The translations under genes were made by a program, and so were the position numbers. A stretch of 64,000 nt of DNA, taken from the NCBI RefSeq assembly GCF_007097395.1, contig NZ_VKDC01000008.1, positions 1 through 64,000 of the forward strand, given 5' to 3'. The DNA comes from Fulvivirga sp. M361 (GTDB taxonomy: Bacteria > Bacteroidota > Bacteroidia > Cytophagales > Cyclobacteriaceae). Shown here one piece after another: positions 558 through 26,472 of this stretch; position 1 is the first letter of the stretch; the number at the start of each line of letters is the position of its first letter. The notes beneath the pieces were generated by a model. That model made no database searches. It was not told where the DNA came from and worked only from the letters and a program-made list of their open reading frames with translations.

Positions 558-1586
558 CTAATCTTCAATTACCGGCCATTGGTTGTGATCATTAATAAAC
601 TTTTCAATGGGAGCGCTTTTGTAATCAGAGTTTTCATAACGCTCTTTTACACTTGAATGCACTAATGTTGGAATAACGTCAGGATCCGGAATTTCACGTA
701 TATACTTTCCTAAAAAACGCATAAACCCTTTGTATTCATCATGTTGTGTAGCTGTCGGATTCAATGTTGAAACGTACAAAAAGTCCTCGAAACTCAGGCC
801 TACTGATTGGGCTTCCTTCATTAGCCACGTCATAGGTATATCAGAAAGGTTAGTACCATCAGGATCATTTTCGTATCCTCCTCCTACATCAGTGTGAACC
901 CCGGCAAACCAGACTTGTTTTAAATCCACATTATCATTAGGCTGCCATATGGTAGGTTCAAAATCATCTCTTCTTTCATCCAGGGACAAAGCATGTCGCG
1001 CAGTAATAACGTTGCTCCCCAATTTATTGTCATAAAAACGATGTTGATCTTTTATTAACCCAAAAAATGAAAAGGGTAATCCCATGGCGCCTACGGTATC
1101 CCATACACCAATAAAAGTGATCATGCTACTGCCTTCAATAGCATATTGATTTCTCCAGTTCACGGAATAGTCACTCATAGGAATATATGCCGGATTTTTG
1201 TATAGTTCAAAGGCTTCTTCAATACGTCTGGATTCAGACCCTTTCAATATATTGCAATTATTTATTAAGCCACAAAGGCTCCTTACCGTATAAGCTCCAC
1301 GGCTAAAACCAAAGAGATATATTTCATCTCCCTGCTCATAATTATGCACCAGGAACCGATAGCCATCCATTACGTTTTTTTCAAGCCCGGCACCAAATCC
1401 ACCTCCGCTTAACTTATCGTGGTAAGAACCTATTCCCCAATCATAGAATACCACTTGTTTGATCCCTTCGGTATCTTTAGGGGCGATACCTCTTGCAAAC
1501 TTCAATACATTGGAGGGATGATCTTCTTCAATGTTCTCTTCCGGACGGTTCCAGGTACCATCGGCACAAATGATAATTCTTTTCAT
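558..1586 (-). CDS. DUF2235 alpha/beta-hydrolase (Tle1-like phospholipase fold)
   Basis: The 342-residue protein opens with MKRIIICADGTWNRP, the DUF2235 signature, and carries the nucleophile elbow GFSRGA (Ser95 in G-x-S-x-G), an Asp in GVWDTVGAMG (about 163) and a His in GVHTDVGGGY (about 231). These form the Ser-Asp-His set of Tle1-type lipases. No signal peptide or membrane segment is present, so it is a cytoplasmic protein unless delivered by another system. Family members include type VI phospholipase effectors, but many DUF2235 proteins stand alone, and there is no T6SS or immunity gene next to this one. Its substrate is therefore open. It is a single gene with its own terminator downstream. 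Confidence 0.85.
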   Translation of the reverse strand: MKRIIICADGTWNRPEENIEEDHPSNVLKFARGIAPKDTEGIKQVVFYDWGIGSYHDKLSGGGFGAGLEKNVMDGYRFLVHNYEQGDEIYLFGFSRGAYTVRSLCGLINNCNILKGSESRRIEEAFELYKNPAYIPMSDYSVNWRNQYAIEGSSMITFIGVWDTVGAMGLPFSFFGLIKDQHRFYDNKLGSNVITARHALSLDERRDDFEPTIWQPNDNVDLKQVWFAGVHTDVGGGYENDPDGTNLSDIPMTWLMKEAQSVGLSFEDFLYVSTLNPTATQHDEYKGFMRFLGKYIREIPDPDVIPTLVHSSVKERYENSDYKSAPIEKFINDHNQWPVIED

Positions 1587-7200: not shown

Positions 7201-7811
7201 ACGATGACTTTGGTATCCGGGTTTTGCTCCTTGTGCTGTGCTAACCGACGAAAAAGGATTGGGTGACACCAGGCAGGATTGGCGCCGGCTATTAAAAAAC
7301 AATTGGCCAACTCTATATCTTCATAGGCAATGGGTACGGCATCCTCTCCCAGGGCTTGCTTATACCCCACCACGGCAGAACTCATACAGAGCCTCGAATT
7401 GGTATCAATGTTATTCGTACCGATCAGCCCTTTGACGAGTTTATTGACCAGGTAATATTCTTCGGTCAGACACTGTCCCGAAACGTAAAATCCGACAGAA
7501 TCCGGGCCATATTGTGCGATCAGTGTCTTAAAAACCGCTGCGGAACGAAAGATGGCTTGTTCCCAGCTTACTTTGCTCAATGGCTGAGACCTGCTTCCTC
7601 TCATTTGAGGATAAAGCAGTCGGTCACTTTTATCCATGACCGTGTAATGCAAATTCATCCCTTTAGAACAAAGCATTCCCCTGTTCACCGGATGGTCTTC
7701 ATCTCCCTTCAGGTCAATCTCCCCCCGTCGATTGACAGATACCTCCATTCCACATCCCACGCCACAGTACGAACAGGTGGTTTTTATACTTGCCTCAGTC
7801 TTTTCAGTCAT
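4296..7811 (-). CDS. Assimilatory nitrate reductase fused to FAD/[2Fe-2S] diaphorase
   Basis: The 1171-residue fusion starts with a molybdopterin oxidoreductase of the NasA/NarB type. An N-terminal 4Fe-4S motif (C13-x2-C16-x3-C20 and C48) is followed by the bis-MGD domains to about residue 690. A linker leads to a pyridine-nucleotide-disulfide-oxidoreductase module (VIVGAGAAAYR near 707, a second NAD-binding HVVIVGGGLLGLE, and an FAD site in FALGEIAEF). It ends in a BFD-like [2Fe-2S] domain with CSCNNV and GLGCGSCKSE (about 1110-1160). The diaphorase half resembles the N-terminal half of NirB. The likely reaction is NAD(P)H-dependent reduction of nitrate to nitrite in the cytoplasm in one polypeptide. 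It lies 63 bases after the transporter ATPase and overlaps the rubredoxin gene by four bases. Confidence 0.9.
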   Translation of the reverse strand: MTEKTEASIKTTCSYCGVGCGMEVSVNRRGEIDLKGDEDHPVNRGMLCSKGMNLHYTVMDKSDRLLYPQMRGSRSQPLSKVSWEQAIFRSAAVFKTLIAQYGPDSVGFYVSGQCLTEEYYLVNKLVKGLIGTNNIDTNSRLCMSSAVVGYKQALGEDAVPIAYEDIELANCFLIAGANPAWCHPILFRRLAQHKEQNPDTKVIVADPRVTDSCGIADLHLQLMPGTDVVLMHAIGRLLIENGQIDEKFIRDHTEGFELYRKEVMKRSVKEAAAICQVAVDDIVTASKYIGSARGFISMWAMGLNQSTDGVNKNLALLNLNLVTGQIGKPGSGPFSLTGQPNAMGGREVGGMANLLAVHKDLFNADHRQEVADYWGVEKINEKPGLTATAMFEALKTGKMKALWIICTNPSVSMPNARLVDEALSMAKFVVVQDISNRSDTLKYADLVLPAAGWLEKEGTMTNSERRISHLSKVMDPPGEALPDVEILTRFAQAMGYHGFDHDNVAEVYAEHCKLTKGTNIDIAGLNYQRLKTEGSLQWPVPEADHSGTPRLFTDKVFYTPNGKARIKTSGLQNLTDKISPDLPLILTTGRIRDQWHTMTKTGKVNKLNSHMPVPFLEIHPKDATQRKVKEGDPVVVTNGRGEVRVTAKVSEGIKEGVVFLPMHWGKTLEQDFSRANNLTDNSIDPQSKQPGFKFAAVQVEKYTKPKEKIVIVGAGAAAYRFIQTYRSMNTTDELQVFSKEPWPFYNRVLLPDYINEHKSWEELLKFEYGELEALNVHLYTSNTIGSIDRETQTVTDQKGEIHSYDKLILATGSRAFVPPDTLLDLPGVFTMRDRKNADELKQSLQNKGHVVIVGGGLLGLELAAALKEIDVDVTIVQLRSRVMERQLDPIGSALLREYVEDLDISVFTNDQVTAVEKSEKEGGVQVFLKSGKEVDCDAIVYAIGTRPNIEIAKASKLACGRGVLVNEYLQTQDENIFALGEIAEFNQKMNGITAAAEQQADCCARFIAGDLSSVYGGSIPMNILKFAHLDLCSIGMVEAPANSRGYDEIIFLDKARLYYKKCIIYKDKLVGAILIGDKVEFAEFKNLIENKVELSEKRKQLLRSGGEIVPVSGKLVCSCNNVGEGNITTSIASGSHTLNEVCQATGAGLGCGSCKSEIQRILNKNSEPVTA

Positions 7812-7874: not shown

Positions 7875-8708
7875 TCAGTGTTCCAGGAAATTGATCAGGT
7901 ATCCGCGATAATCGTAGTAATCGGGATGTTCCAGCACTTCGATACGGTTTCTGGGCCGCTCGAAAGGTATGATCAATTCATCCCCTATTTTAGCGCTCGG
8001 TCCGCTTGTCATCATGATCACACGGTCGGCCAGGAAAATGGATTCATCTACGTCATGTGTTACCATAACGGCCGTGATTTTTTCCCGCTGCCATACTTCC
8101 AATAATACATCCTGAAGTTCGCCCCTGGTCAGAGAGTCTAACATACCAAACGGTTCATCCAGCAATAGTACTTTTGGTTTGAGCGCAAATGCCCTGGCTA
8201 TGCCTACGCGCTGCTTCATTCCTTGTGACAGCTCGGTAGCGCGTTTGTCAAATGCATTGCCCAAACCCACTTTATCCAAATAATATTTACAGATTTCCAG
8301 TTTTTGCTTTTTTGTAGCATGAGGAAATACCTGCTTTACCCCTATCATTACATTTTGAAGGGTCGTAAGCCAGGGAAATAAACTCGGTGACTGAAATACC
8401 ACTGCACGGTCGGGGCCAGCGCCACGAATAGGCTCACCATCTACCCGAATATGGCCGCCACTCAGGTCATTCAGACCAGCTATCATGGAAAGTAATGTTG
8501 ATTTACCACAGCCTGAGTGACCAATAATGGAGATAAACTCACTTTCCCGGATAGTCAGCATCAGATCTTCCAGCACCACATAATCTCCCTTTGGCGTGGG
8601 ATATACCTTTTTGACACTGTCACAATCAAGCATGACAGGCATACCCTTTAACCGGTCTCTAACGATCAGGTCTTTCAGGTCCGTTTCTACTTTTTCAATC
8701 GTATTCAT
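7875..8708 (-). CDS. nrtD: Nitrate/nitrite ABC transporter ATPase (NrtD-like)
   Basis: The 277-residue ATPase has Walker A GHSGCGKSTLL, signature LSQGMKQRVGIARA, Walker B VLLLDEPFGMLD and the switch histidine in VMVTHDVDE. It belongs to the NrtCD/SsuB/TauB family that powers uptake of nitrate, sulfonates and similar anions. Nitrate is indicated by the nitrate reductase immediately downstream and the NrtA-like lipoprotein upstream. Two bases separate it from the other ATPase, so the two probably form a heterodimer with the permease. The signature Gln in place of the usual second Gly (LSQG) is common in this family. Confidence 0.85.
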   Translation of the reverse strand: MNTIEKVETDLKDLIVRDRLKGMPVMLDCDSVKKVYPTPKGDYVVLEDLMLTIRESEFISIIGHSGCGKSTLLSMIAGLNDLSGGHIRVDGEPIRGAGPDRAVVFQSPSLFPWLTTLQNVMIGVKQVFPHATKKQKLEICKYYLDKVGLGNAFDKRATELSQGMKQRVGIARAFALKPKVLLLDEPFGMLDSLTRGELQDVLLEVWQREKITAVMVTHDVDESIFLADRVIMMTSGPSAKIGDELIIPFERPRNRIEVLEHPDYYDYRGYLINFLEH

Positions 8709-8710
8709 CC

Positions 8711-9595
8711 CTAGAAATATTTAACTTTTTCGTTTGCTTTTTTCTTTCTGAAAGTGATCCGGCCGGGCATCACCGGTTTTAGGTCCGGTAGTTGGTAAGT
8801 AGTGCTGGTGTGCTGACTTCTACTGGCTCCTACCTCAATGAGATATTCCAGCACTTCATTACGCAGCTTTTTATATTCCGAATTATTATTGATATCCATG
8901 ATGTTTCTGGGACGGGCTATGTTAACGCTAAATTCCGGTCCCAAAGTAGCCCCCGGACCAATGGTCAGCGGGATAATCCTGTCTGCCATAATGATCCCTT
9001 CGTCCACGTCATTGGTAATGAGCAGGGCCGTTTTTTTGTCCTTACTCCAAATGTTGATGATCTCTTTCTGAAGTGTACCTCTGGTGAGGGCATCCAGTGC
9101 GCTAAGCGGCTCATCCATAAGAAGTACTTCGGGATTCATGGCCAGCGCTCTCGCCACTGAAACACGCTGCCGCATGCCACCGGATAATTCAGCAGGTCGC
9201 TTTTCTGCAGCCGGCGTAAGGCTTACCATATCTATGTATTTTCTGATGTGATTGTCCTTATCTTTTTTAGGCATTTCAGGAAACACTTCATCAACGGCCA
9301 GCTTTACATTCTGATAGACAGTGAGCCAGGGTAAAATGGAATAATTTTGAAAGATCACACCGCGGTCAGGCCCCGGGCCGGTGACCGGTTTACCTTTCAG
9401 CAACACCTGGCCCGAATCAGGGGATAACAAACCGTTGATCAGATTGATCAATGTGGTCTTTCCACTGCCTGTAAACCCAACAATGGCTACGAACTCTCCT
9501 TCATTCACACTGAGATTCACATCCGATAATACTTCCGTCTTCTGATACCCCGTACCATATGACTTACTGATATTTTTTAATTCCAGTATTGCCAT
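8711..9595 (-). CDS. nrtC: Nitrate/nitrite ABC transporter ATPase (NrtC-like, no solute domain)
   Basis: The 294-residue protein has Walker [12 protein letters not shown], signature [15 protein letters not shown] and Walker [13 protein letters not shown]. The usual His of the H-loop is replaced by Asn in [11 protein letters not shown], which suggests this subunit may be catalytically weaker than its partner. Cyanobacterial NrtC carries a C-terminal solute-binding domain. Here there is only a roughly 50-residue basic tail, so the regulatory domain is absent. It is one base from the permease gene, in the middle of the uptake operon. The paralogue next to it is clearly diverged, so this is an old duplication with subunit specialisation. 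Confidence 0.85.
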
Positions 9596-9596
9596 A

Positions 9597-10697
9597 TTAT
9601 GCTACCTCGGCTTTGTTGAAGGACATAAACTGCTGCAACACGACCATGATCCGGTCCAGTAAAAAACCAATGCCTCCTATCACGAACATAGCTACGATGA
9701 TCTTAGCGTTGGAGTCGTTGGCGCCGTTTTGGAATTCTTCCCAAACAAAAGACCCTAACCCGGGACTTTGGGCCAATAACTCTATGGCTATCAACACCAT
9801 CCAGGCCACAGACAGCGTGATCCGCATGCCCGTGAAAATGAGCGGAAAAGATGCCGGCAAAATCACTTTAAAAATATTCTGCCCTATGCTCAAACGTAAT
9901 ACTTTAGCTACATTGATGAAATCTTTGTCCACTGTAGCCACACCCATACTGGTATTGACCAATGTGGCCCACATGGCACAAAAAGCCACACTGATAAAGG
10001 AGATTACAAAAGACTTATCCATGTCCGGGTTTACGATAAGCGTTTTCACGATCATAAACACCAACAGCAACCAGACCACGGGAGAAACCGGCCTGAAGAT
10101 CTGTATGAGCCAATTCAGCGCTGTACGTAATGTACTGCTTAACCCCATGATGATACCCATGGGAATAGCAATGAGCACTGCCAGTAAAAATCCGGCAAAT
10201 ACCGTTTTTATGCTGGTACCGATCTGATCGAGAAAAGAAGGTCTGCCGGTATATTCTATTAAGGACAGTCCCTGAGCTTCTCTTTGCGCGTTAGTGGCAG
10301 ATACTTTCTGGCTGAAGGCCGCTTTCTTATCACTAATGTTAAGATGGTCCTGCCACAATGAAAGATAAGCACTATACACCTGCTGAGGGGAAGGCAACGT
10401 ATTGGGTTGACAGGACACATCCCCGGACGCGATACAAGCCCGCATATCGATAGCTGCTTGCTCTCCCTGATCAGCAAGTGCCTTTTCCACCCTGCGTTCC
10501 GTCTCGATGTTATACAGGTAACTGGCTGCGCCCTGCCATACCAGTATGAACAACATTATGGTGACTACCGGAAATACTGCTTTTTTGAAAAAAGCAATGG
10601 TATTTTTCCGGGGTTCTTCTTTGTAACATAACCTGATCAAAGGTTCCAGAAAGCCCAGCCCGATGAATCGTATTATACGTATTATCCTATCTTTCAT
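9597..10697 (-). CDS. nrtB: Nitrate ABC transporter permease (NrtB-like, long periplasmic loop)
   Basis: The 366-residue inner-membrane permease has a first membrane segment at about residues 40-60. A roughly 110-residue polar segment follows, then five or so further membrane segments. The ABC-coupling EAA loop is visible in the stretch around [14 protein letters not shown] followed by [15 protein letters not shown]. NrtB/SsuC permeases are usually near 250-280 residues. The extra length is mainly the segment between the first and second membrane helices, which contains a possible disulfide pair, C88 and C96 ([10 protein letters not shown]). It is inferred to be periplasmic and to contact the lipoprotein. 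The gene follows the solute-binding gene by 12 bases. Confidence 0.85.
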
Positions 10698-10709: not shown

Positions 10710-12104
10710 TTAGTGGTCCTTATTGCCTATTTCAAAGCTTTGAATGTAGTCTAAAGGTTTTTTACCGTCGTATGTCTTTCCGTCAATGAAGTCTGTAGTG
10801 GCTGGTTTGTATCCATCGGTATCCGGCACATCGGTAGCATCAATATGGCCTTCTTTTACCAGCATATCCGCTGCTTTTTTCCAGATATCAGGGCGATAAA
10901 TGTCTTTGATGGTAGCATGATACCACTCTTCCGGTTTGCTTTCAGGGATCTGTCCCCATCTTCTCATTTGAGTCAGGAACCATATCCCGTCACTATAAAA
11001 GGGATAGGTGGCATGGTAACGGTAAAATACGTTAAAGTCAGGCATGGACCTTTTTTGCCCTTTTTCAAATTCGAACGTGCCGGTCATGGAGTTGGCGATA
11101 ACGACAGAGTCTGCTCCCACATATTCCGGCATGGAAAGTATGCCCACGGCTTTGGGCCTGTTGCCCGGCGTATCCAGCCACTTACCGGCACGGATCAGTG
11201 CTTTGGTAACGGCCACGGCTGTATTAGGATATTTTTCAACAAAGCTTTTGGTCATTACAAATACTTTTTCGGGATTGTTTTTCCAGATATCATAGTTCGT
11301 AGTTACCGGCACACCTATTCCTTTAAAAACAGCTTGCTGGTTCCAGGGCTCTCCCACACAATATCCATATATAGTACCTGCTTCAAGGGTAGCCGGCATC
11401 TGTGGCGGTGGTGTTACACTCAGCAAGACATCAGCATCTACCTGCCCCTGGATGTTTTCTTTTGTATAAAAACCAGGATGAATACCGGCCGCTGCCAGCC
11501 AGTAACGGATCTCATAATTATGGGTAGACACGGGAAATACCATGCCCATCTTGAAAGGCTTACCGTTGTTTTTGTACTCGTTCACTACCGGTGCCAGTGC
11601 ATCTGCAGTAATAGGATGTACCGGACTTCCATCTTCGCCAATGGGTACATTAGGTTTCATTTTAGCCCACACTTCATTAGAGACTGTGATACCGTTTCCA
11701 TTTAAATCCATTGAAAAAGGGGTCACTAATCCTGCCTGACGTCCGAAACCTGCCCCGGCGGCCACCGGCTGTCCGGCCAGCATATGTGAACCGTCCAGCT
11801 GCCCATCAATAACCCTGTCCAACACATTCTTCCAGTTGGATTGTGCTTCTATGGTAACAAACAGTCCTTCCTCTTCAAAGTAGCCGAGTTCTTTGGCTAT
11901 GGCCAGTGGCGCCATATCGGTAAGTTTAATAAAACCGAACGTCAGCTGTGGTTTTTCAATGGCTAACGTTGTAGCACTTAAGCCATCTGCCGGTTTGTCT
12001 GTGGCCTCGCTTTTGGCCCCTCCACCACACTGTGTGAATAAAACGACTGTGGCAGCCAATAGTACAAGGTGAATTCTTTTCATATTTATATTCATAGTTT
12101 TCAT
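10710..12104 (-). CDS. nrtA: NrtA/CmpA-family nitrate-binding lipoprotein
   Basis: The 464-residue protein has a lipoprotein signal peptide ending in LFTQC (Cys26). The mature part begins [23 protein letters not shown], typical of the NrtA/CmpA periplasmic-binding family, and continues with [15 protein letters not shown] and [13 protein letters not shown]. It should capture nitrate or nitrite in the periplasm and deliver it to the permease next door. CmpA homologues bind bicarbonate; the gene context decides for nitrate. Three ATGs lie close together at the N-terminus (12104, 12095, 12083) and all give a functional signal. It follows the porin by 17 bases in the same operon. Confidence 0.88.
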
Positions 12105-12121: not shown

Positions 12122-13372
12122 TTATTGATCCGTACTGTCAAAAATGGAGGTCTTTAATGTAAGCTGTAACCACGCCCAGTTATTGGTCTCGTCAGATGAG
12201 CCTGTTTTAAACAATTCAAAGCTATCATCCGCAAAAAGCTGTGAATAGCCCACTTTTACATTGAATTCAGGGCTTACTTTCAGATCATAGATCAGGTCTA
12301 TTTCCGTACCCAGATAACCGTCAGCAGTTTCACCACTTTCCGCCACTTCATCGGTAAACTCCTGATTGGTGCTGAAATAGTGAATGTGTGTTAAGAGTTT
12401 GGATTTCTTGCCGGTTTTGAAGGCGGTCTTCACAAAAATGTCATTCAGCCCCATAGAAGGTTGCTCACCTACATAGAAGAAATCCATTAAGCCATAGAAC
12501 TTATGGTTGGTACCAAACTGCTGCTTCCAGGTTTCATTTTTATCTGCGGTGCTTTCATCATCACCGGATACCATTTCAACCCCGACAGTTATGGGTATGG
12601 AACCTGTTTTATAGGTACCACTAAGCGCCAACAATGATCCGCCAATGTCTGTACCAAGGAACTGGCCAAATTGGACATAGGCTGAAGCATCCAAGGTGAG
12701 CTTACCTCCGATTTTTAAAGTTGGAATGAATCCCAACGTTGTATAAGCATAATACTGGCCCGGATCAGTTTCAGTGACCACATTCGCACCCATTAGTGAG
12801 TATTTAAAATCTCCGGCTGAAGGACTATCAAACCACACATACTGGATGCTCTTGTTTCCCGCATCCCCGATATTCCCGTTGACTTCGTTGGTATGCCCTA
12901 CCTGGTTCAAGGTAAATCCGGCGTGGAGTGTAGCATCTCCCAACTTGAATTTACCGACAAAGGCATCATGCGAACGACCGGGTGCGGCCCAGGCCAGCGC
13001 ACCGAAAAAACGCTGGTCGCCATAAGAAATGGGCTGTCTTCCAAATTTTAATGTAAATGATCCGGAAATATCATATGCTGCCCATGCTTCGAATACTGAG
13101 ATAGAGCCCGAAGTGCTTGTTTGAGCTTGCTGTCCCCAGAAGTTGATATACTGAGGCGTGAACTTAAAAGTGAACTTATCTTTTTTGTATTGGAAATATA
13201 ACCGGGTACGCTGTTGTGTGGCCAGCCCCGGGGTATTATCTTCTCCTGAAAGACTGGAGTTGGTCCCGTTATAAAACTCTGTTCGTGGTCTCACTTCACC
13301 ACTTAACCTAAACTGCGCATAAGCTGGTGAAACACCTGACACCATCAGTAGTAAGTAAAGTATCTTTTTCAT
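12122..13372 (-). CDS. Alginate-export-family outer-membrane porin (probable nitrate entry channel)
   Basis: The 416-residue protein has a clear signal peptide (cleavage after PAYA, about residue 19). The mature part reads QFRLSGEVRPRTEFYNG and continues with alternating aromatic/polar strands such as FRFQYKKDKFTFKF-like segments, and ends in a strand. This is the alginate_exp (AlgE-like) beta-barrel family. Despite the family name, nothing around it makes or uses alginate. As first gene of the nitrate operon it is best read as the outer-membrane pore for nitrate. The name reflects fold, not substrate. The start follows the motif-rich regulatory region at 13402-13485. Confidence 0.8.
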   Translation of the reverse strand: MKKILYLLLMVSGVSPAYAQFRLSGEVRPRTEFYNGTNSSLSGEDNTPGLATQQRTRLYFQYKKDKFTFKFTPQYINFWGQQAQTSTSGSISVFEAWAAYDISGSFTLKFGRQPISYGDQRFFGALAWAAPGRSHDAFVGKFKLGDATLHAGFTLNQVGHTNEVNGNIGDAGNKSIQYVWFDSPSAGDFKYSLMGANVVTETDPGQYYAYTTLGFIPTLKIGGKLTLDASAYVQFGQFLGTDIGGSLLALSGTYKTGSIPITVGVEMVSGDDESTADKNETWKQQFGTNHKFYGLMDFFYVGEQPSMGLNDIFVKTAFKTGKKSKLLTHIHYFSTNQEFTDEVAESGETADGYLGTEIDLIYDLKVSPEFNVKVGYSQLFADDSFELFKTGSSDETNNWAWLQLTLKTSIFDSTDQ

Positions 13373-13709
13373 AAGCCTAAGTATTTAAATGTGTTATTTA
13401 CTTACGTAAATGAACGCATTAATTTAAGTAGTTGCAAATATTATTACGTAATTATACGTAATAATAATAGCCATTAATTACGTATTATACTTAGAATTAA
13501 TTTTAAGTAACGGAATCCTGGCAAAATATGGCTGTGCGTATAGGTTCTCCGCAAAGCAAGGAGGTACAAGGGACTTGCTAAACACAGTTTAAACCTTGCG
13601 TCTTTGCGTTTTCGCAAAACACCATGCTTTCTGATTTAACTCATAAAGAAGTCATTTGTAAATTTGCCGGCTGCCTGTTCGCCAATTACCGACCGTGCCC
13701 TGTACCCTG
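13373..13709. other. Intergenic region between regulator gene and nitrate operon
   Basis: Besides the palindrome cluster at its right-hand-operon end, the stretch 13520-13700 shows only a short hairpin (TTTGCG/CGCAAA, 13603-13618) about 90 bases after the regulator's stop. No open frame of note is present. Confidence 0.5.
13402..13485. promoter_or_regulatory. Cluster of TTACGTAA palindromes upstream of the nitrate uptake operon
   Basis: Four copies of the palindrome lie here: TTACGTAA at 13402-13409, TTACGTAA at 13444-13451, ATACGTAA at 13454-13461 and TTACGTAT at 13478-13485. The middle two are centred exactly 10 bp apart. The same tandem arrangement occurs before nirB. The response regulator gene nearby has a NarL/LuxR-type HTH, a family whose half-sites commonly start with TAC. 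I infer that these are its operators. On the minus strand a TATTTG element lies just downstream of the tandem pair, compatible with activation from an adjacent site. Confidence 0.65.
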
Positions 13710-14393
13710 CTATTGGAGAAACTCTTTCAATTCAGGCTCCTGGTCTATTTTATGAAGCAGTTCAACTATATTATTGACGTCAAGCTTTTTCATTATATTG
13801 AAACGGTGCGTTTCTACGGTACGGATGCTCTTGCTCAGATCATCGGCAATGGCTTTATTAGAAACCCCACGTGAAATCAGGGACAAGATCTGCCGCTCCC
13901 TTTTAGTGAGGTTGTAATCTACCTTTTTTTCTTCAGTCACCTGGCTTCTTGGCTCTTCCCGGATGGAAGACAAATACCTGGTCACCAAAATATTGGACAC
14001 ATCACCACTAAAATACTTATGCCCTTTGCAAACAGCATGTATGGCCTTTAGAAACTCGCCCTTGCCGGTATCCTTAAGCAAATAACCGTCAGCGCCACAG
14101 TCGATGGACTTGGTGATATACTCCTCATCATCATGCATGGTAAGCATAAGAACTTTCACCTTCGGGTAGCTGCGCTTGATCTTACTGGTCGTCTCTATAC
14201 CGTTTCCATTGGGCATGCGTATGTCCATAATTACTGCATCAGGCTGCTCTTTTTCTATGGTGAGAAAAGCTTCTTCACCATCCGAAGCTTCGGCTACTAC
14301 CTCAATATCTTCTTCTGTTTCCAACAGCAGCTTCAGACCGGTTCTAACAATTTCATGATCATCAGCTAATACGATCCTAATGACTTCACTCAT
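13710..14393 (-). CDS. NarL/LuxR-family response regulator (candidate nitrate regulator)
   Basis: The 227-residue protein has a receiver domain (acidic pair near residues 11-12, phospho-acceptor Asp in DAVIMDIRMP at about 56, Lys in LLKDTGKGE) and a C-terminal GerE-type HTH (LTKRERQILSLISRGVSNK, then TVETHRFNIMKKLDVN). It lies three bases after the histidine kinase, so the pair forms one system. The location between the two halves of the nitrate regulon, and the kinase's NarX-like input domain, point to control of nitrate/nitrite genes. The likely DNA target is the TTACGTAA palindrome set. The closest textbook equivalent is NarL, but orthology cannot be shown here. Confidence 0.85.
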   Translation of the reverse strand: MSEVIRIVLADDHEIVRTGLKLLLETEEDIEVVAEASDGEEAFLTIEKEQPDAVIMDIRMPNGNGIETTSKIKRSYPKVKVLMLTMHDDEEYITKSIDCGADGYLLKDTGKGEFLKAIHAVCKGHKYFSGDVSNILVTRYLSSIREEPRSQVTEEKKVDYNLTKRERQILSLISRGVSNKAIADDLSKSIRTVETHRFNIMKKLDVNNIVELLHKIDQEPELKEFLQ

Positions 14394-14396
14394 GCT

Positions 14397-16184
14397 TTAA
14401 TCCAAAGGTATAGTTATGGTAATCATGGTTCCCTCTTCTGGCTTAGTATTCAAATCAAACGTACCATTTATAAAGGCCGTGCGTTCTTTCATATTAAAAA
14501 TACCGTGACCGGAACTCTCAAAATAACCAGTTTTTTTCAATTTCTCATAGTCGAAGCCTTTGCCGTCGTCCTGTATGGTAATTTCTAATTCTCTGGGACT
14601 ATGAATCAGTTTAACATCTATAGAAGAAGCTTTTGCATATTTTATAGCATTGTTAATGGCTTCTTGAATGATTCGATAAATATTATTTTCAACATGACTC
14701 TCCAGGCGATTTACAAAACGGGTTTCATTAGTGAAAAATACCTTATTCCCAGACAGTTGACTTACTTCCTGACAAAATTTTGTGATGGCTGGAGTAATGC
14801 CAAAATCACTCAGGCTGGCCGGAGTCAGATTAAAGGATACTCTGCGGATCTCCCGTAAGATGCTTTTCATCAACTCCCGGGTATCTTCCAGCCTGCGCTT
14901 GGTATGAATGGAGCTTGATGGTGTAATCGCCTCCAGGTTCAATTTAAGCGCCGTAAGCATTTGACCTATCCCGTCATGGATCTCGCGGCCTAATCGCCAT
15001 CGCTCTTCTTCCTGACCTTCCAGGATCAAAACCGAACGGTACTGCTGTTCTTTCACCCGTTTCTCTATTTTCTCCCTGTTAATTTCGCGCGAGCGTATTT
15101 TTGCTTCTTTCAGTTCGGTAATGTCACGCGCCACCAGCTTATAGGTATAGCTCTCCCGGATCTTTACGGGTATAATGAACAGTTCAAGCCAGATGAAATC
15201 ACCGTCTTCATTGACCAATTTTATTTCACCTGACCACGGCCGGTGGTTTTTCAGGATTTTCATCAACCCTCCTGTAAATTCTTTTCTGTAGTCATTATCC
15301 AGCAGTAATTGCACAAAACTTTCCGGTGACTTCTCCCATTGCATTAGTACTTTAAACTTGTCTGAAACGGAGGTGAAGCTTCCCTTATCATCAATGGTGG
15401 CAAAAACCAGTGGAGCTTCAGGTTCATAACGAGTAGACTCCAGGTCCTGATAGGATTTTACCAGTTCTTCATACAACCTGCTCAACTCACCCGCCATACG
15501 GATAGAACCTTCTTCTGACTCCACCAATTCATCGACCGTTTGCCTCACATTACGCGCTATTGGCCTGAAAACAAATATCAGTTCTATCAAAATAATGGAA
15601 AGAGAAAGTATGAGAAGGGTGATCTCAATTTTACGTAGTTCTTTAACACGTGCGTTAGCTTCTTTATCATATTGGAATACGATAGCGTTCATCCCCCGCA
15701 GAAAGCTGTCCTCATGTGTCAGAATGGCTTGAATAGAAGTATCTAGGTCTGATCTGACCAAATCGTTTACTGGCAATTGAATGATCTTATGTGCATGAAA
15801 CACCATCTGGGTATAATGGTTTTCTATCTGCTTATACATCTTTAATACATCGGAAGAAGGCTTATCCTGAAGTCCCAGTTCTTCATTACCTTCCAGTAGT
15901 CCCCGGTGTGATTTTTCCCAAAGCGCTACAGTATTTTTGAGTTCTTTGACCTCCTGGCTATAGGAAATAGTATCTGATACCCTGCCGATTTTCAAGGCGA
16001 TCTTACTGATTTTCTGACTTAGCATTCGCTGCCTGCCCGCAACATTAATGGTGCGGGCATCATCTTGCTGGGTCCCTATGTAGTTCTGTACGACAAGCTG
16101 ACTTAGAATAATGCTCACCGCGATGCCTGACAATGCCAGAATGTAAAAAAGCCCTAGTTTGTCAAATTTTCGGTGCTTATTCAT
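14397..16184 (-). CDS. NarX-like histidine kinase with P-box-type sensor domain
   Basis: The 595-residue kinase has membrane helices at about 10-32 and 186-206. Between them is a four-helix periplasmic domain that starts ARTINVAGRQRMLSQKISK, which matches the nitrate-binding P-box helix of NarX/NarQ (PilJ-type domain). A PAS-like domain (about 255-370), a short coiled coil and the HisKA_3 core follow, with His near 401 in GREIHDGIGQMLTALK. The ATPase part has NAIKYAKAS, DDGKGFD and GHGIFNMKERT. It should autophosphorylate on sensing nitrate or nitrite and pass phosphate to the adjacent regulator. It probably belongs to the nirBD transcript, about 130 bases after nirD. Confidence 0.88.
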   Translation of the reverse strand: MNKHRKFDKLGLFYILALSGIAVSIILSQLVVQNYIGTQQDDARTINVAGRQRMLSQKISKIALKIGRVSDTISYSQEVKELKNTVALWEKSHRGLLEGNEELGLQDKPSSDVLKMYKQIENHYTQMVFHAHKIIQLPVNDLVRSDLDTSIQAILTHEDSFLRGMNAIVFQYDKEANARVKELRKIEITLLILSLSIILIELIFVFRPIARNVRQTVDELVESEEGSIRMAGELSRLYEELVKSYQDLESTRYEPEAPLVFATIDDKGSFTSVSDKFKVLMQWEKSPESFVQLLLDNDYRKEFTGGLMKILKNHRPWSGEIKLVNEDGDFIWLELFIIPVKIRESYTYKLVARDITELKEAKIRSREINREKIEKRVKEQQYRSVLILEGQEEERWRLGREIHDGIGQMLTALKLNLEAITPSSSIHTKRRLEDTRELMKSILREIRRVSFNLTPASLSDFGITPAITKFCQEVSQLSGNKVFFTNETRFVNRLESHVENNIYRIIQEAINNAIKYAKASSIDVKLIHSPRELEITIQDDGKGFDYEKLKKTGYFESSGHGIFNMKERTAFINGTFDLNTKPEEGTMITITIPLD

Positions 16185-16316
16185 GGATTATCTTTCCTTC
16201 TACAGATCAAGCCTGTAAATAGAGCAAAAGAATGGTAATATGGAAGCTGAAGTGTAATCTTCTGGTATTGCCGGACTTCTATAGCTCCACAAAAAACTGA
16301 ATACCCTTACATCTAA

Positions 16317-16700
16317 CTATCCTTTAAATCCAACATACACACACCCTTCCTCTACCTTTACCGGGTAAGTGGCAAGACTGCATTCATTACCATTCAGGTT
16401 TTCACCACTTTTCAGGGAAAATGTTTTTTTATGATATGGGCATGCTACTTTGGGTTCATTTTGTTGTGTACCGATCATGCCCCTGGAGAGGATCATTTGT
16501 TGCTTATGCGGACATACGTTTTGTGTGGCATACCACTCCTGCCTGCGACTGAAGTTAAAAACAGCTATCTGCATACCTTTGTATAAAACACAGGCACCAC
16601 CATTCACCGGAAAGTCCCCGATCTTAGCCACTTTATGCCATACTTTCACTTCTTCCAAAGCCACGGTTTCATATTGTATTATCTCTTCGCTTACATCCAT
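16317..16700 (-). CDS. nirD: Nitrite reductase small subunit, Rieske type
   Basis: The 127-residue protein has a complete Rieske [2Fe-2S] ligand set: C63-P-H65 and C87-P-Y-H90 in NVCPHKQQ and VACPYHKKTF. It is the NirD-type partner of NirB in cytoplasmic NADH-nitrite reductase. Having all four ligands is worth noting because some NirD proteins have lost them. It lies 43 bases after nirB in the same direction and should be cotranscribed. Size and position fit the family well. Confidence 0.9.
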   Translation of the reverse strand: MDVSEEIIQYETVALEEVKVWHKVAKIGDFPVNGGACVLYKGMQIAVFNFSRRQEWYATQNVCPHKQQMILSRGMIGTQQNEPKVACPYHKKTFSLKSGENLNGNECSLATYPVKVEEGCVYVGFKG

Positions 16701-16743
16701 TGTATTATCATTACCTGCTTTATCATTGAATTTTATTTAGCCA

Positions 16744-19236
16744 TCACCAGGCTGCCGGTACTTTCTGCCCCCGGATGCTGTCAAACTTCTGCGTAGGGTC
16801 ACCTGCATCGGTATTAATGAAATGGCTGAATTTGGCTTTTAAGGCATCGTTTTTCACTACTTCAGCCCATTCACAGCTATATGTGTCTACCAGGTACTGC
16901 ATTTCCTTCTCTAACTCCGCACCTATTCTAAGGCAGTCGTTCACAATCACATCTTTAACATAATCCAGTCCGCCTTCCAATTTATTTAACCAGGTAGCTG
17001 TTCTATTGAGGGGTTCAGCGGTTTTGATATAAAACATCAAAAACCTGTCAAGGTATTTGACACAGGTTTCTGAATCAAGGTCACCTGCCAGCAATTGTGC
17101 GTGCTGAGGGTTAGCGCCCCCGTTACCACAGATGTAGAGGTTCCAGCCCACTTCAGTAGCTATAATACCAAAATCCTTACTTTGGGCCTCAGCACACTCT
17201 CTGCGACAGCCGGAAACTCCTCCCTTCAATTTGTGTGGCGCTCGTAATCCTCGATAGCGGTTTTCCACTTCAATAGCAAAGGAAACAGAGTCATGCAATC
17301 CAAATCGACACCAGGCGGACCCCACACAGCTTTTTACTGTTCGTAGTGATTTTCCATAGGCATGCCCGCTCTCAAAACCAACGGCTATTAGTTCTTCCCA
17401 AATGGAAGGCAGGTCTTCCAACCGGGCACCAAACAGATCAATACGTTGCCCTCCGGTGATCTTGGAATAGAGGTTATACTTTTTAGCCACCTGACCCAGT
17501 ACAATGAGTTTCTCAGGGGTTATCTCCCCACCGGGTACACGAGGCACCACTGAATACGAGCCCCCTTTTTGAATATTTGCCAAAAACCGGTCATTAGTAT
17601 CCTGTATGGTATCCTGATTTACGATCAGATCATTCCAAATACTGGCTAACAGTGAGGCTACTGCCGGCTTACATACTTCACAGCCGTCTCCTTTACCGTA
17701 GCTGTCCAGCAAGTGATCGTATGTTTTAATTTCCTTTATCCTGATCAGGTCGTAAAGTTCCTGGCGCGTATAGTCCAGGTGCTCACAAATCACCTTTCTC
17801 ACCCTTTTACCCATTGCCGCCACGGTATCATGAAAAATATCCGCTACCATAGGACCACAAGCGCCACATCCTGTACCTGCTTTTGTACATGTTTTTACTG
17901 CCTTAAGGTCTTCAATCCTCTCTTCCCGGATCGCTTTAACGATATCTGCTTTCGTCACATCTTCACAAGAGCATACCTGCGCTGTATCAGGTAATGTAGT
18001 AATGGAGCCACCTCCTCCGCCTTCAGCACTGCGATCACCCAGGATGAGGTCTTCCGGATCGGGAGGAAGTACCGTACTATTGTTCATAATCTGCCAAAGC
18101 ATGTTGTATTCGCTTGTATCACCTACCAGTATTCCACCCAATAGCTGTTTTTTATCTCCGGAAATAGTGATCTTTTTATAAATTCCGGTACTTTCATTTT
18201 TGTAAACTACCGTTTTACACCCTTCCGTATCTCCCATAGCATCACCAAAACTTCCCACTTCTATCCCTATCAACTTAAGCTTGGTAGACATATCGCTTCC
18301 GTCAAAGACTTTGTCACCACTCGCTGTCAACTGTTGTGCTACTGATTCTGCCATATCATATCCCGGCGCCACCAGCCCATAGATCATGTTGTTAAACAAT
18401 GCCGCCTCACCTATCGCATAGATATTCGGATCATCTGTTTTTAGCTTCTCATTGACGATCACACCTCCACGCGGTCCTGTACTCAACCCACACGATGACG
18501 CCAATTCATCCCTTGGAACAATACCGCAAGAAATCACGAGCATATCTGTACTTAAATGTGTGTTATCAGAAAATGAAAGACAGTCCAGTGCGCCTTCACC
18601 TAGAAGGGCAGTAGTGTTTTTATTCAGGTGAATGGATAACCCAATATCTTCTAACTGGTTTTTCAAAATCTCAGCGCCTGTATCATCTAGCTGACGAGGC
18701 ATAAGCCGTGAAGCAAATTCTATCACATGGGTTTTTAGCCCCATATCCATTAACGCCTTTGCTGCTTCTAATCCCAGCAGTCCTCCCCCCAAAACGGCTG
18801 CGCTTTTTGCTTTGGTCCCATACGCCATGATATTGTTAAGGTCCTCGAGTGTCCTGTATACAAATACCCCTACTTTATTTACCCCATCGATCGGCGGAAC
18901 AAGCGGACTTGACCCGGTGGCAAGAATGAGTGTGTCATAATGCTCTTCATGCCCCAGGTGTGTGATGACTTTTTTCTGATTTCGATCAATGGTTACCACC
19001 AACTCCCCGGTTCGCAGGTCTATATGGTTTTCACGATACCAATTTGCAGGCGCCATGCTTAGCCTCTCGGCAGAAGGGTCCGTAAAATATTCACTTAAAT
19101 GGACCCGATCGTATGCAGGAACAGGCTCTTCTCCAAATACCACCAGCTGTATCTTATCTGCACCAGCTTTTAACCTGATCTTCTCACAGAATTTATACCC
19201 AACCATTCCATTTCCAATGACGACTACTTTTTCCAT
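16744..19236 (-). CDS. nirB: NADH-dependent nitrite reductase large subunit
   Basis: The 830-residue protein reduces nitrite to ammonium in the cytoplasm. Domains in order are: FAD/NAD(P)-binding module (VVIGNGMVGYKFCEKI at the N-terminus, AAVLGGGLLGLEAAKAL near 150); a BFD-like [2Fe-2S] domain (VCSCEDV and GTGCGACGP, about 425-475) followed by a second degenerate copy with GDGCEVCKP; then ferredoxin-like and siroheme/4Fe-4S domains with SCVGSAWC (C-x5-C) and SGCRRECAEA (C-x3-C). All cofactor ligands are intact, unlike in the rubredoxin protein at 2842-4299. Length matches canonical NirB. The promoter region carries four TTACGTAA-type sites and is shared with the divergent siroheme gene. Confidence 0.95.
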   Translation of the reverse strand: MEKVVVIGNGMVGYKFCEKIRLKAGADKIQLVVFGEEPVPAYDRVHLSEYFTDPSAERLSMAPANWYRENHIDLRTGELVVTIDRNQKKVITHLGHEEHYDTLILATGSSPLVPPIDGVNKVGVFVYRTLEDLNNIMAYGTKAKSAAVLGGGLLGLEAAKALMDMGLKTHVIEFASRLMPRQLDDTGAEILKNQLEDIGLSIHLNKNTTALLGEGALDCLSFSDNTHLSTDMLVISCGIVPRDELASSCGLSTGPRGGVIVNEKLKTDDPNIYAIGEAALFNNMIYGLVAPGYDMAESVAQQLTASGDKVFDGSDMSTKLKLIGIEVGSFGDAMGDTEGCKTVVYKNESTGIYKKITISGDKKQLLGGILVGDTSEYNMLWQIMNNSTVLPPDPEDLILGDRSAEGGGGGSITTLPDTAQVCSCEDVTKADIVKAIREERIEDLKAVKTCTKAGTGCGACGPMVADIFHDTVAAMGKRVRKVICEHLDYTRQELYDLIRIKEIKTYDHLLDSYGKGDGCEVCKPAVASLLASIWNDLIVNQDTIQDTNDRFLANIQKGGSYSVVPRVPGGEITPEKLIVLGQVAKKYNLYSKITGGQRIDLFGARLEDLPSIWEELIAVGFESGHAYGKSLRTVKSCVGSAWCRFGLHDSVSFAIEVENRYRGLRAPHKLKGGVSGCRRECAEAQSKDFGIIATEVGWNLYICGNGGANPQHAQLLAGDLDSETCVKYLDRFLMFYIKTAEPLNRTATWLNKLEGGLDYVKDVIVNDCLRIGAELEKEMQYLVDTYSCEWAEVVKNDALKAKFSHFINTDAGDPTQKFDSIRGQKVPAAW

Positions 19237-19246
19237 AGCTTTATTT

Positions 19247-19327
19247 TTACGTAAAATTACGTAATAATTTTTTAATTCAAACGAAAATATACGTAATTTG
19301 AATAAGTGAGAAACAAAAATTACGTAA
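19247..19327. promoter_or_regulatory. TTACGTAA palindrome cluster in the nirB / siroheme divergent promoter
   Basis: Sites are TTACGTAA at 19247-19254, TTACGTAA at 19257-19264, ATACGTAA at 19289-19296 and TTACGTAA at 19320-19327. The first two are centred exactly 10 bp apart, as in the uptake-operon promoter; the others follow at 32 and 31 bp (about three helical turns each). Position between divergent genes suggests that one regulator drives both nirB and the siroheme methyltransferase. Identity of the binding protein is inferred. Confidence 0.65.
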
Positions 19328-19329
19328 GA

Positions 19330-20103
19330 ATGGGAAAGTTATTATTAGTAGGCGCGGGTCCCGGAGACCCGGAATTAATTACTTTAAAGGCTATAAAGGC
19401 CTTGGAAATGGCTGATGTAGTACTTTATGATGCGCTTGCCAATGATGAACTACTGAATTATTGTCGAAAAGATTGCCATAAAGTATACGTAGGAAAGAAG
19501 GCCGGACTGCACGCTTACCAGCAGATATTCATCAATGATATGATGGTGGATTATGTACGGCAAAACAAAATAGTGGTCCGGTTAAAGGGTGGTGACCCTT
19601 TTATTTTGGGTCGGGGGCATGAAGAATTAGCCTATGCATGGGAACGGGGTATCGACGTTGAGGTAGTACCCGGGGTAAGTAGTGCACTGGCAGTTCCTAC
19701 CGCTCATCATATACCTTTGACAAAAAGAGGTGTGAACGAGAGTTTCTGGGTGGTGACCGGTACTACCATGAACGGTAGTTTTTCTAATGATCTGGCTTTT
19801 GCCGCCCGGTCTACAGCTACGGTGGTTATACTCATGGGTATGAAGAATTTAAGTAAAATCATATCCCTGTTCCAAACCCACAGAGGTAGTGAAGAATCCA
19901 TTGCTATCATCCAAAACGGTACACGACATAACGAAAAAGCAGTGATCGGCACCCTGAAATGCGTCGAACAAAGAGTATTGGAAAATGAAATGTCCAACCC
20001 CGCCATCATTGTCATTGGAGAAGTTGTTAAATACTGTTTATCAAGCCCTTGCCTTGAAAAACAGCTGAATTCAATTTATTCGGACTTAATGGTTAAAGTT
20101 TAG
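19330..20103 (+). CDS. cobA: Uroporphyrinogen-III C-methyltransferase (siroheme synthesis)
   Basis: The protein of about 257 residues starts MGKLLLVGAGPGDPELITL at the ATG at 19330. An in-frame GTG at 19306 would add eight residues but would place the palindromic site 19320-19327 inside the gene, so I prefer 19330. SAM-dependent uroporphyrinogen methylase motifs are all present: GAGPGDPELITLKA, LKGGDPFILGRGHEE, VPGVSSALAVPTAHHIPLT and VILMGMKNL. It makes precorrin-2, the precursor of the siroheme that NirB needs. It is the monofunctional form: the CysG-type dehydrogenase/ferrochelatase half is absent and must be encoded elsewhere. Divergent from nirB with a shared control region. Confidence 0.92.
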   Translation: MGKLLLVGAGPGDPELITLKAIKALEMADVVLYDALANDELLNYCRKDCHKVYVGKKAGLHAYQQIFINDMMVDYVRQNKIVVRLKGGDPFILGRGHEELAYAWERGIDVEVVPGVSSALAVPTAHHIPLTKRGVNESFWVVTGTTMNGSFSNDLAFAARSTATVVILMGMKNLSKIISLFQTHRGSEESIAIIQNGTRHNEKAVIGTLKCVEQRVLENEMSNPAIIVIGEVVKYCLSSPCLEKQLNSIYSDLMVKV

Positions 20104-24648: not shown

Positions 24649-26472
24649 TCAAGTATTCTGCATAGCGCTCAACTTTTTGTAAAGCCCGCCCTTTTCAAGC
24701 AATTCATCATGTTTCCCTCGTTCAAGGATCTCTCCATTTTGGATAACTACAATTTCATCAGCATGTTGTATCGTACTCAGGCGATGTGCAATCACGATGG
24801 AAGTTCGGTTTTGCATGAGGTTAAAAAGTGCTTGCTGTACCAGCATTTCAGATTCAGAATCGAGTGCTGAGGTAGCTTCATCAAGGAGCAATATGGGTGG
24901 GTTTTTCATGACTGCGCGTGCAATACTAAGTCGCTGACGTTGCCCCCCCGAAAGTTTCATACCCCTATCACCAATATTAGTATGATATCCCTGCTCTAAC
25001 TCAATAACAAAATCATGCGCGTTAGCTACTTTAGCTGCTTTTATCACATCTTCTTCGCGAGCGCTTTCTATACCGAAAGCAATATTATTAAATACAGTAT
25101 CATTAAAAAGGATAGATTCCTGGGTGACAATCCCCATCTGTTGCCTTACAGAATCCACCTTGCAATCCACTAAGGGTATATTATCAATCTTTATGGCACC
25201 TGAGACAGGGTCATAAAAACGCGGGATCAGATCTACCAATGTAGATTTACCTCCCCCGGACGGCCCTACCAATGCCACTGTGGTCCCCTTTTTGATTTTT
25301 AAGTTTATGTTTTTGAGTACCCTCTCTTTATCATAAGCAAAGGACACATTTTCAAATTCAATGGCCTCATGAAATCCGTCCAGTTCAACAGCCCCTACCT
25401 TATCCCTGATAGCTGGTACCGCGTCAATAATGGAGAAAATACGTTCTCCTGAGGCAATTCCTTTCTGTACGCTGGATATACCCTGTGCAAAGGCTTTTGC
25501 CGGGGATATGATTTGAGCAAAAATAGCCAGGTAAGCAATAAATTGTGCCGCATCCAGGGACGACTGGTCGCTCAACACTAAAGAGCCTCCAAAATAGAGT
25601 ATTAAACTAACGATAGCTATACCAATAAACTCGGAAATGGGAGACCCTAACTCTTTTCGATAGCTATAGGATAGGTTTACTTTTCTATAGAAATTCGTTT
25701 CTTCATCTACCTTTTTATTTACGTATTCACGGGCATTAAAAGCTTTAATGATACGCATCCCTCCTAATGTCTCATCCAATATATTAAGTATCCTGCCCAA
25801 TGATTCCTGGCTGAGAATGGCCTTTTTCTTTAGCTTTTTAACAATATACCCCAATGCACCACCTGCTGTAGGCAAAACCAACAGTGTGAAAAATGTAAGT
25901 TTCACCGAAAGCATAAACAGAACAATGAAGAAAATAACGATCTGCACCGGCTCTCTGAATAACGCCTTAGGGCTACCTAAAACAGACACTTCCAACTCGA
26001 GCACATCGGTAGTACTTCTTGAAATGAGGTCTCCCTTACGCTCATTGGAAAAGAAGCCCAGATGCATGCTCGAAATTTTTTTGTAAATGGCCATGCGCAG
26101 GTATTTTACTGCATCCAGTTTGATCCTGGCGCTAATGACAGCCGCTAAGTAACGAAACAGATTAGTGAGCAATACAGACACCAATACTATCAGGCATACG
26201 AAAACAAGTGCCTGCTCCTCCCCCTGGTGTTTTATGATGTATGAAAAGTAATAGTTGAAATAGTTCGTTACGTAATCAATACTAAATTCAAAGCCGGCTG
26301 GTTCTGCAAAAACAGTATCCGGAGTAAGTTTAAAAAGTACATTGAGAAGTGGGATCAACAGCGCAACATTGAATGCACTGAATATTACGCTGAGCAATAC
26401 AAAAGCAACATACTGCGGCACAAAAAGGCGTAGTTTTTTGGCATATCCGAATACCCGAAAAAATGTTTTCAT
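24649..26472 (-). CDS. MsbA-type ABC exporter (fused membrane and ATPase domains)
   Basis: The 607-residue half-transporter has a six-helix ABC_membrane domain in the first 330 residues, with a long periplasmic first loop (about 40-90). The ATPase domain has Walker A VGPSGGGKSTLVDLIP, signature LSGGQRQRLSIARAV, Walker B ILLLDEATSALD and H-loop VIAHRLSTI. It probably acts as a homodimer in the inner membrane. MsbA-type lipid A flipping is the default reading, and heptose/gmhA next door is consistent with that. Multidrug or lipid export by the same fold cannot be excluded. Confidence 0.88.
   Translation of the reverse strand: MKTFFRVFGYAKKLRLFVPQYVAFVLLSVIFSAFNVALLIPLLNVLFKLTPDTVFAEPAGFEFSIDYVTNYFNYYFSYIIKHQGEEQALVFVCLIVLVSVLLTNLFRYLAAVISARIKLDAVKYLRMAIYKKISSMHLGFFSNERKGDLISRSTTDVLELEVSVLGSPKALFREPVQIVIFFIVLFMLSVKLTFFTLLVLPTAGGALGYIVKKLKKKAILSQESLGRILNILDETLGGMRIIKAFNAREYVNKKVDEETNFYRKVNLSYSYRKELGSPISEFIGIAIVSLILYFGGSLVLSDQSSLDAAQFIAYLAIFAQIISPAKAFAQGISSVQKGIASGERIFSIIDAVPAIRDKVGAVELDGFHEAIEFENVSFAYDKERVLKNINLKIKKGTTVALVGPSGGGKSTLVDLIPRFYDPVSGAIKIDNIPLVDCKVDSVRQQMGIVTQESILFNDTVFNNIAFGIESAREEDVIKAAKVANAHDFVIELEQGYHTNIGDRGMKLSGGQRQRLSIARAVMKNPPILLLDEATSALDSESEMLVQQALFNLMQNRTSIVIAHRLSTIQHADEIVVIQNGEILERGKHDELLEKGGLYKKLSAMQNT

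Follow-up and report, generated by a model that had tools for sequence, protein, structure and literature searches.

Which protein reads the short palindromic repeats that stand before two nitrate operons of Fulvivirga sp. M361? The repeats lie in a 64,000-nucleotide stretch of this genome (contig NZ_VKDC01000008.1, positions 1–64,000; here the window), taken from an assembly of 8.13 Mb that is 97.55% complete, and a nitrate-type sensor kinase (narHK) and a NarL-family response regulator (narRR) are encoded between the two promoters that carry them. A first-pass annotation had proposed the octamer TTACGTAA as the shared signal of both promoters and had read it as two NarL-type half-sites placed head to head. 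The evidence used throughout is comparative: sequence analysis served to define the operator, to measure how specific it is across the genome and how far it is conserved, and to see whether it occurs together with the regulator. On these grounds the unit of the signal is the pair TAmGTA-N4-TACkTA, a 16-bp inverted repeat, and not the octamer, and it is very probable that the nitrate-sensing regulator of the same cell docks at this paired signal.

Paired repeats in the two nitrate promoters

Six exact copies of TTACGTAA were found in the window (13402 and 13444; 19247, 19257 and 19320; 26268) against 0.93 expected, and 1 of 100 shuffles reached six. Copies with one mismatch occur at 13454, 13478, 13503 and 19289 in the two intergenic strips; over the whole window they number 29 against 26.2 expected, which is ordinary, and what stands out is their clustering. 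The nine repeats of the two promoters correspond to the eight of the first-pass annotation if TTAAGTAA at 13503 is omitted, and its two pairs exactly 10 bp apart, one in each promoter (13444/13454 and 19247/19257), were recovered, as was its copy in coding DNA, which falls at 26268 within the open reading frame (ORF) 24649–26472. The TACGTA core occurs 20 times in the window, with four copies in the strip 13373–13709 (13403, 13445, 13455 and 13479) and four in the 93-bp strip 19237–19329 (19248, 19258, 19290 and 19321). When the uptake promoter was scanned for sigma-70 elements, 1 match was obtained against 1.4 in shuffles, which is uninformative. The elements, to which no strand is assigned, are as follows.

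19248–19263: operator TACGTA-AAAT-TACGTA in the divergent strip between nirB and the sirohaem gene, 12 bp before the nirB start codon (conserved across nirB promoters)
19290–19295: single TACGTA, 32 bp (about three turns) from the nirB pair (10.5-bp phasing)
19321–19326: single TACGTA adjoining the start of the uroporphyrinogen methyltransferase gene (motif scan)
13445–13460: operator TACGTA-ATTA-TACGTA before the nitrate uptake/reductase operon (motif scan)
13403–13408: single TACGTA, at 42 bp from the pair of the uptake promoter (motif scan)
13479–13484: single TACGTA of the uptake promoter (motif scan)
13503–13510: TTAAGTAA, a variant half-site (one-mismatch scan)

Conservation of the operator and its co-occurrence with the regulator

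The comparison covered the 300 bp preceding nirB in 93 loci, of which 80 were named and 13 came from the own genome and relatives; genomes G001, G003 and G021 were counted once, as L065, L061 and L063. The kinase/regulator pairs of these loci fall into two classes, described below. The pair is on the same stretch as nirB in all 34 class-1 loci but two, being on another contig in L034 (G002) and about 29 kb from nirB in L042 (G050). Loci L041 (G039) and L045 (G045) were placed in class 2 after reading of the operon, the final controls numbering 49, and L139 was placed there by tblastn and has no row in the regulator alignment. L090 and L132, with a 45–46% regulator of different helix at the locus edge, were kept among the 49, and L100 was set aside as a short contig whose genome has the regulator elsewhere.

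The core MGTA-N4-TACK was present before nirB in all 34 loci with a class-1 kinase and regulator (0.56 expected in shuffles), TACGTA in 33 of them (3.2 expected) and the exact pair in 25 (0.01 expected); counted by genus, the core was found in 19/19. The comparison of orthologous promoters that the first-pass annotation had suggested as a check thus showed the signal to be conserved in related genomes. Among the 49 loci without the pair nearby, TACGTA was found in none and MGTA-N4-TACK in one (L126), the genome of which (G098) has a class-2 pair elsewhere. From the modest octamer excess in the window one might suspect that an A/T-rich palindrome has clustered by chance, but the rarity of the pair, the presence of the core in all 19 genera and the lack of TACGTA in the 49 control promoters contradict this, and we give it practically no credence.

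When 49 genomes, those of the control loci without L107 and with L100, were searched for the regulator and at most 59 candidates were scored in each, nine had a match at E 1e-40; these were class-1-like in G065 (L100), class 2 in G098 (L126) and other paralogues in the rest, as far as the helix was seen. The close relative G030 has nirB, nirD, porin, narK and nas, and the stretch that holds them is without the kinase/regulator pair; its genome yielded neither a match to the regulator at E 1e-60 nor an operator. As a separate observation, L064 (PBTY01000003.1), labelled Rickettsiales, has a Marinoscillum-like nitrate locus whose regulator groups with that of Marinoscillum, and this bin is probably mislabelled.

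The pair as the unit of the signal

In the 8.13-Mb genome TTACGTAA alone has 101 copies, and 14 of the first 15 retrieved sit within ORFs. The pair TACGTA-N4-TACGTA occurs six times (reversed control 1) and, with an A/T spacer, twice, at the two nitrate promoters (reversed control 1); the widened pattern TAMGTAWWWWTACKTA still gives these two sites (reversed control 1). A concentration at nitrogen genes, the genome-wide check suggested in the first-pass annotation, was thus not seen for the octamer itself, and it was the A/T-spaced pair that proved to be confined to nitrate promoters. The other four exact pairs (L016–L019) have GGCA or CCCT, on one strand, as spacer and were treated as unrelated to the nitrate operator. 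Two of these, L017 and L018, are copies of a longer repeat; L016 and L019 (both 1497–1518), two unrelated intergenic places, have in common only 22 identical bp around TACGTAGGCATACGTA and may be sites of a different regulator.

The geometry of the pair was examined in the nirB promoters. Of 18 pairs other than TACGTA/TACGTA, 16 keep the inner GTA and TAC, one is reversed and one direct (13 and 2 by genus); in these 16 the left half is TAAGTA or TACGTA and the right half TACGTA or TACTTA. Spacing in the 34 promoters strongly prefers N4, with 57 GTA-N4-TAC sites against 2 with N3 and 5 with N5. In 25 loci GTA-N4-TAC was found at 81 intergenic places and at 113 in ORFs, which are ten times longer, and the intergenic sites are flanked by T (.85), A (.81) and C (.62) or A (.30) on one side and by G (.67) or T (.25), T (.90) and A (.90) on the other. 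Distances between TACGTA elements cluster at 10, 31–33, 41–43, 63–65 and about 73 bp with a 10.5-bp period (R 0.76, n = 107, kinship uncorrected). A three-element pattern, which was badly set, matched in 2 of 17 genomes.

That each octamer is a complete NarL-like site would agree with its excess over shuffles in the window; the 101 genomic copies lying mostly within ORFs among those retrieved, the strong preference for N4 and the conservation of the inner triplets in the variants make this very improbable, and the octamer was ruled out as the unit by the genome-wide counts. A NarL 7-2-7 reading, suggested by the length of TACGTAA-nn-TTACGTA, was also rejected, as the variants keep the inner and not the outer triplets; with it falls the half-site argument of the first-pass annotation. 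The NtcA site is GTA-N8-TAC, and this spacing was found in 3 of 34 promoters against 2.8 expected and was rejected.

The predicted regulon

Of 38 TAMGTAWWWWTACKTA sites in the 12 genomes that have the regulator, 36 lie before nirB, porin/nrtA (nitrate porin/ATP-binding cassette (ABC) genes), narK/nas or a CRP-type gene, and the reversed pattern gave six in the same genomes. Four other nirB-bearing genomes have 0, 3, 1 and 0 such sites, none at nirB; the single site of G045 is the one before nosZ noted below. When TAMGTA-N4-TACKTA was searched in 25 named loci, all 54 sites lay outside ORFs of at least 80 residues (47 kb) and none in the 485 kb of ORFs. A gene matched to nirB, methyltransferase, porin, CRP-type, narK, nas or kinase follows within 450 bp at 47 of them, and a ThiS-family (MoaD)/MoaE/MoaA group follows at four, in four Echinicola loci (family searches were made on one, L067). 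The rest comprise one site before hemA, one before a narK cut by the contig stretch and one (L113) without assignment, so that 53 of 54 were assigned. Molybdenum cofactor and haem are cofactors of nitrate and nitrite reductases. One operator is thus shared by genes of a single pathway that are otherwise unrelated, a pattern that cannot be put down to a single promoter having been inherited.

A different protein, such as a CRP/FNR-type regulator, could read the repeats, with the two-component pair carried along in the operon. A CRP-type gene does lie beside the uptake operon in G001, G014, G021 and G033, but a close copy (65–100% identity) was found in only these 4 of 16 genomes, the next-best ones not exceeding 37%. 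Of the 12 genomes in which the motif occurs with exact A/T-spaced pairs, three (G003, G010 and G029) gave no CRP-type match at E 1e-20. The CRP-type gene carries the operator itself. An orphan regulator keeps TACGTA arrays without nirB, and the motif letters change with the regulator helix, as described below. A reader other than narRR is therefore improbable, and the CRP-type gene, which is not present wherever the motif is, was rejected for that role.

Some further observations were made on these genes and sites. The CRP-type genes precede the nitrate porin/ABC operon at L172, L173, L174 and L190 (the four genomes above, in that order), and their product starts with a cysteine-rich CxxCHxxxC; three of the four have the operator in their own promoter. 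In the class-2 genome G045, TAAGTAAAATTACTTA lies upstream of nosZ with one short ORF between (L224:2185–2200). In G025, a relative outside the regulator test, TACGTATAAATACGTA occurs four times at scattered places.

The sensor kinase and the regulator

The NarX/NarL-like pair was found where the first-pass annotation had placed it, between the two promoters.

14397–16184, minus strand: sensor kinase (narHK) with PilJ nitrate-type sensor, PAS, HisKA_3 and HATPase domains (domain search)
13710–14393, minus strand: NarL-family response regulator (narRR), the proposed reader (Response_reg 108.7 bits, GerE 64.5 bits; model)

The names narHK and narRR were given to these Bacteroidetes genes, with and without PAS, in PMC8199190. 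The kinase has Pfam matches to PilJ (53.8 bits), PAS_9, HisKA_3 and HATPase only, with no HAMP or GAF, as in narHK. It matches nitrate-bound McpN (6GCV) over the INVAG-QRMLSQK stretch (E 4.2e-4), and its GRQR at 50–53 fits the G-x-x-R nitrate motif given in PMC8199190, as in a NarX-like P-box. Class-2 kinases have 475–504 residues and the same box, and the one scanned (L220) matched PilJ, HisKA_3 and HATPase with no PAS match. The kinase ORF was called short in the class-1 loci L067, L071, L076 and G033.

Both domain matches of the regulator are over their cut-offs and place it in the NarL/FixJ family, and it stays below the strict models of NarL (NCBIfam equivalog; 159.1 bits, cut-off 250) and MctR (197.2, cut-off 300). 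In its AlphaFold2 model (mean pLDDT 85.6) the helix-turn-helix is formed by helices 179–186 and 190–203, the latter being the second, and the DNA-binding domain of SsrB (2jpc) was among the best solved-structure matches.

An orphan regulator and two operator classes

G006 and G007 have no true nirB (best matches partial, E 1e-24 to 1e-26), and their regulator has the class-1 recognition helix and no adjacent kinase. Between this orphan regulator and an S9 (prolyl-)oligopeptidase gene, about 475 bp hold seven TACGTA in each genome (L235:7281–7754 in G006 and L236:10555–11029 in G007), and the only TAMGTAWWWWTACKTA site of G006 and one of the two of G007 adjoin the regulator. The shared arrangement was counted as one case.

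In the regulator tree, class 2 (8 rows, 9 loci) was split from class 1 by one branch with support of 100/98; the tree is midpoint-rooted and gives no direction for the change of class. The two classes differ at residues 188 (K in class 1, L in class 2), 194 (E/D), 195 (T/N), 198 (F/A) and 200 (I/M), class 2 being uniform and class 1 nearly so. L087 and G050 are the class-1 rows nearest to class 2, and F198A is already present in G050. The changed positions presumably map onto DNA-contacting residues of NarL. The class-2 nirB promoters have TACGTA in 0/9 and AGTA-N4-TACT in 7/9, five of these as GAGTA-N4-TACTC, and the class-2 form also stands before narK (L245) and a glutamate-synthase-like gene (L244; GATase_2). 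Across the nine class-2 genomes GAGTAWWWWTACTC was found at 11 places against 10 for the reversed control and is not enriched by number; five of the 11 are at nirB, one at narK, one at the glutamate-synthase-like gene and four elsewhere. In four other genomes it was found at one place, within an ORF.

Taken jointly, these results lean towards a natural specificity switch, in which the regulator and the nitrate promoters would have been rewritten together, along with the new use of a nitrate regulator in a Fulvivirga-like lineage that lacks nirB. The GTA-N4-TAC core would have been kept while the outer letters differ (TAC/TAA vs TTGA), and the operator would have changed in step with recognition-helix residues 188, 194, 195, 198 and 200 and with the presence or absence of PAS in the kinase. 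The orphan regulator may have survived with its operators crowding the promoter of the S9 oligopeptidase gene.

A model for nitrate-dependent control

We consider it highly likely that the repeats are operators of the locus's own nitrate-sensing two-component system. In the proposed mechanism narHK would bind periplasmic nitrate through its PilJ-type P-box and phosphorylate narRR, and a narRR dimer would bind the inverted repeat TAmGTA-N4-TACkTA, whose half-sites are one helical turn apart. Single elements 31–33 and 41–43 bp away would face the same side of the helix, where binding is likely to be co-operative. Nitrate binding, phosphorylation, DNA binding and co-operativity are here inferred from sequence. 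The most likely result would be that nirBD-narHK-narRR is switched on in a self-amplifying manner together with the sirohaem gene and the nitrate porin/ABC/reductase operon.

The sign of regulation is probably activation. That narRR reads the sites and represses, with nitrate relieving or imposing the repression, is unlikely, though it deserves more weight than a foreign reader; the operator is close to the nirB start codon (12 bp in the window, and short in some relatives), but its distance from nirB is variable, with values between about 12 and about 150 bp, there are several phased elements upstream of it, and systems of this kind usually activate themselves in response to nitrate.

Several findings weigh against this explanation by the locus's own two-component system. 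Two of the 38 TAMGTAWWWWTACKTA sites lie elsewhere, one within an ORF (G002:C69, L216) and one at G003:C175 (L217), and relatives outside the 12 genomes have 14 scattered matches in 21 genomes, ten of which were regulator-tested. The class-2 loci L094 and L045 are without AGTA-N4-TACT at nirB. The species are related, so that co-occurrence partly follows the tree and the locus counts are not independent events. The motif follows the regulator, in that the core tracks its presence, the sister branch has a changed operator and the orphan regulator keeps TACGTA arrays. The observation made in the first-pass annotation was thus confirmed, and its interpretation partly supported: what holds is one operator common to both nitrate promoters, conserved in relatives, infrequent elsewhere and linked to the NarX/NarL-like pair of the same system, with a 16-bp inverted repeat in place of the octamer.

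Organization of the locus

On the minus strand the order is nirB, nirD, sensor kinase and NarL-family regulator, followed after a 337-bp gap by a porin-like gene, the nitrate-type ABC genes and a molybdopterin oxidoreductase with flavin module. The uroporphyrinogen methyltransferase gene is divergent from nirB and, by inspection, its true start is probably the ATG at 19330, which borders the 93-bp strip between them.

16744–19236, minus strand: nirB, nitrite reductase large subunit (family search)
16317–16700, minus strand: nirD, nitrite reductase small subunit (family search)
12122–13372, minus strand: porin-like protein (Alginate_exp domain), first gene of the uptake operon (domain search)
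10710–12104, minus strand: NMT1_2-type substrate-binding protein, NrtA-like (family and domain search)
9597–10697, minus strand: nitrate-type ABC permease (score below curated cut-off)
8711–9595, minus strand: nitrate ABC ATPase (family search)
7875–8708, minus strand: second nitrate ABC ATPase (family search)
4296–7811, minus strand: molybdopterin oxidoreductase fused to a flavin/NAD module, nitrate reductase, Nas (domain search)
19306–20103, plus strand: uroporphyrinogen-III C-methyltransferase, sirohaem (family search)

Adjoining the nitrate reductase, 2842–4299 (minus strand) encodes a nitrite/sulfite reductase half-domain with a C-terminal rubredoxin, relatives of which come after nas in L176 and L218. 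Farther away, 558–1586 (minus strand) encodes a Tle1-like phospholipase catalytic domain of type VI secretion systems (278 bits).

Comparison with known systems

With a conserved site the regulon becomes predictable from sequence; it covers nitrate/nitrite reductase and uptake, joined in some genomes by genes for molybdenum cofactor and haem. The site can also serve directly as a probe in binding experiments. The two operator classes and the few helix changes that match them form a compact natural system in which to ask how NarL-family regulators and their promoters change DNA specificity together. The proteins belong to a known family; what is new here is the operator, in its two classes, and no published operator for narHK/narRR was found in open-licence PubMed Central. 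The Bacteroidetes narHK/narRR of PMC8199190 are the same system in having a NarX-type sensor without HAMP or GAF, PAS in one clade only (class 1 against class 2 here) and a position beside nitrate genes, whereas the text of that paper contains none of the words promoter, operator and DNA-binding. The PilJ domain of the nitrate chemoreceptor McpN (6GCV) has the INVAG-QRMLSQK stretch and G-x-x-R in common with narHK (PMC6381276), but it belongs to a chemoreceptor and not to a kinase.

E. coli NarX-NarL shares the regulator family and, according to PMC4549865, a 16-bp inverted repeat bound by a dimer. The NarL 7-2-7 site given there, TACCCCTAAAGGGGTA, has TAC/GTA at its outer ends, and these are kept in NarL sites, whereas the inner GTA-N4-TAC is invariant here, which sets the operator apart from the 7-2-7 type. 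The closest architecture is the 7-4-7 palindrome of SsrB, described in PMC2837388 as a NarL-family regulator with inverted half-sites and a 4-bp spacer, for which the orientation of half-sites matters and single half-sites can act. Its half-site letters and regulon are unrelated, and the likeness is one of working alike only. In its architecture the nitrate operator resembles the SsrB 7-4-7 site more than the NarL 7-2-7 site.

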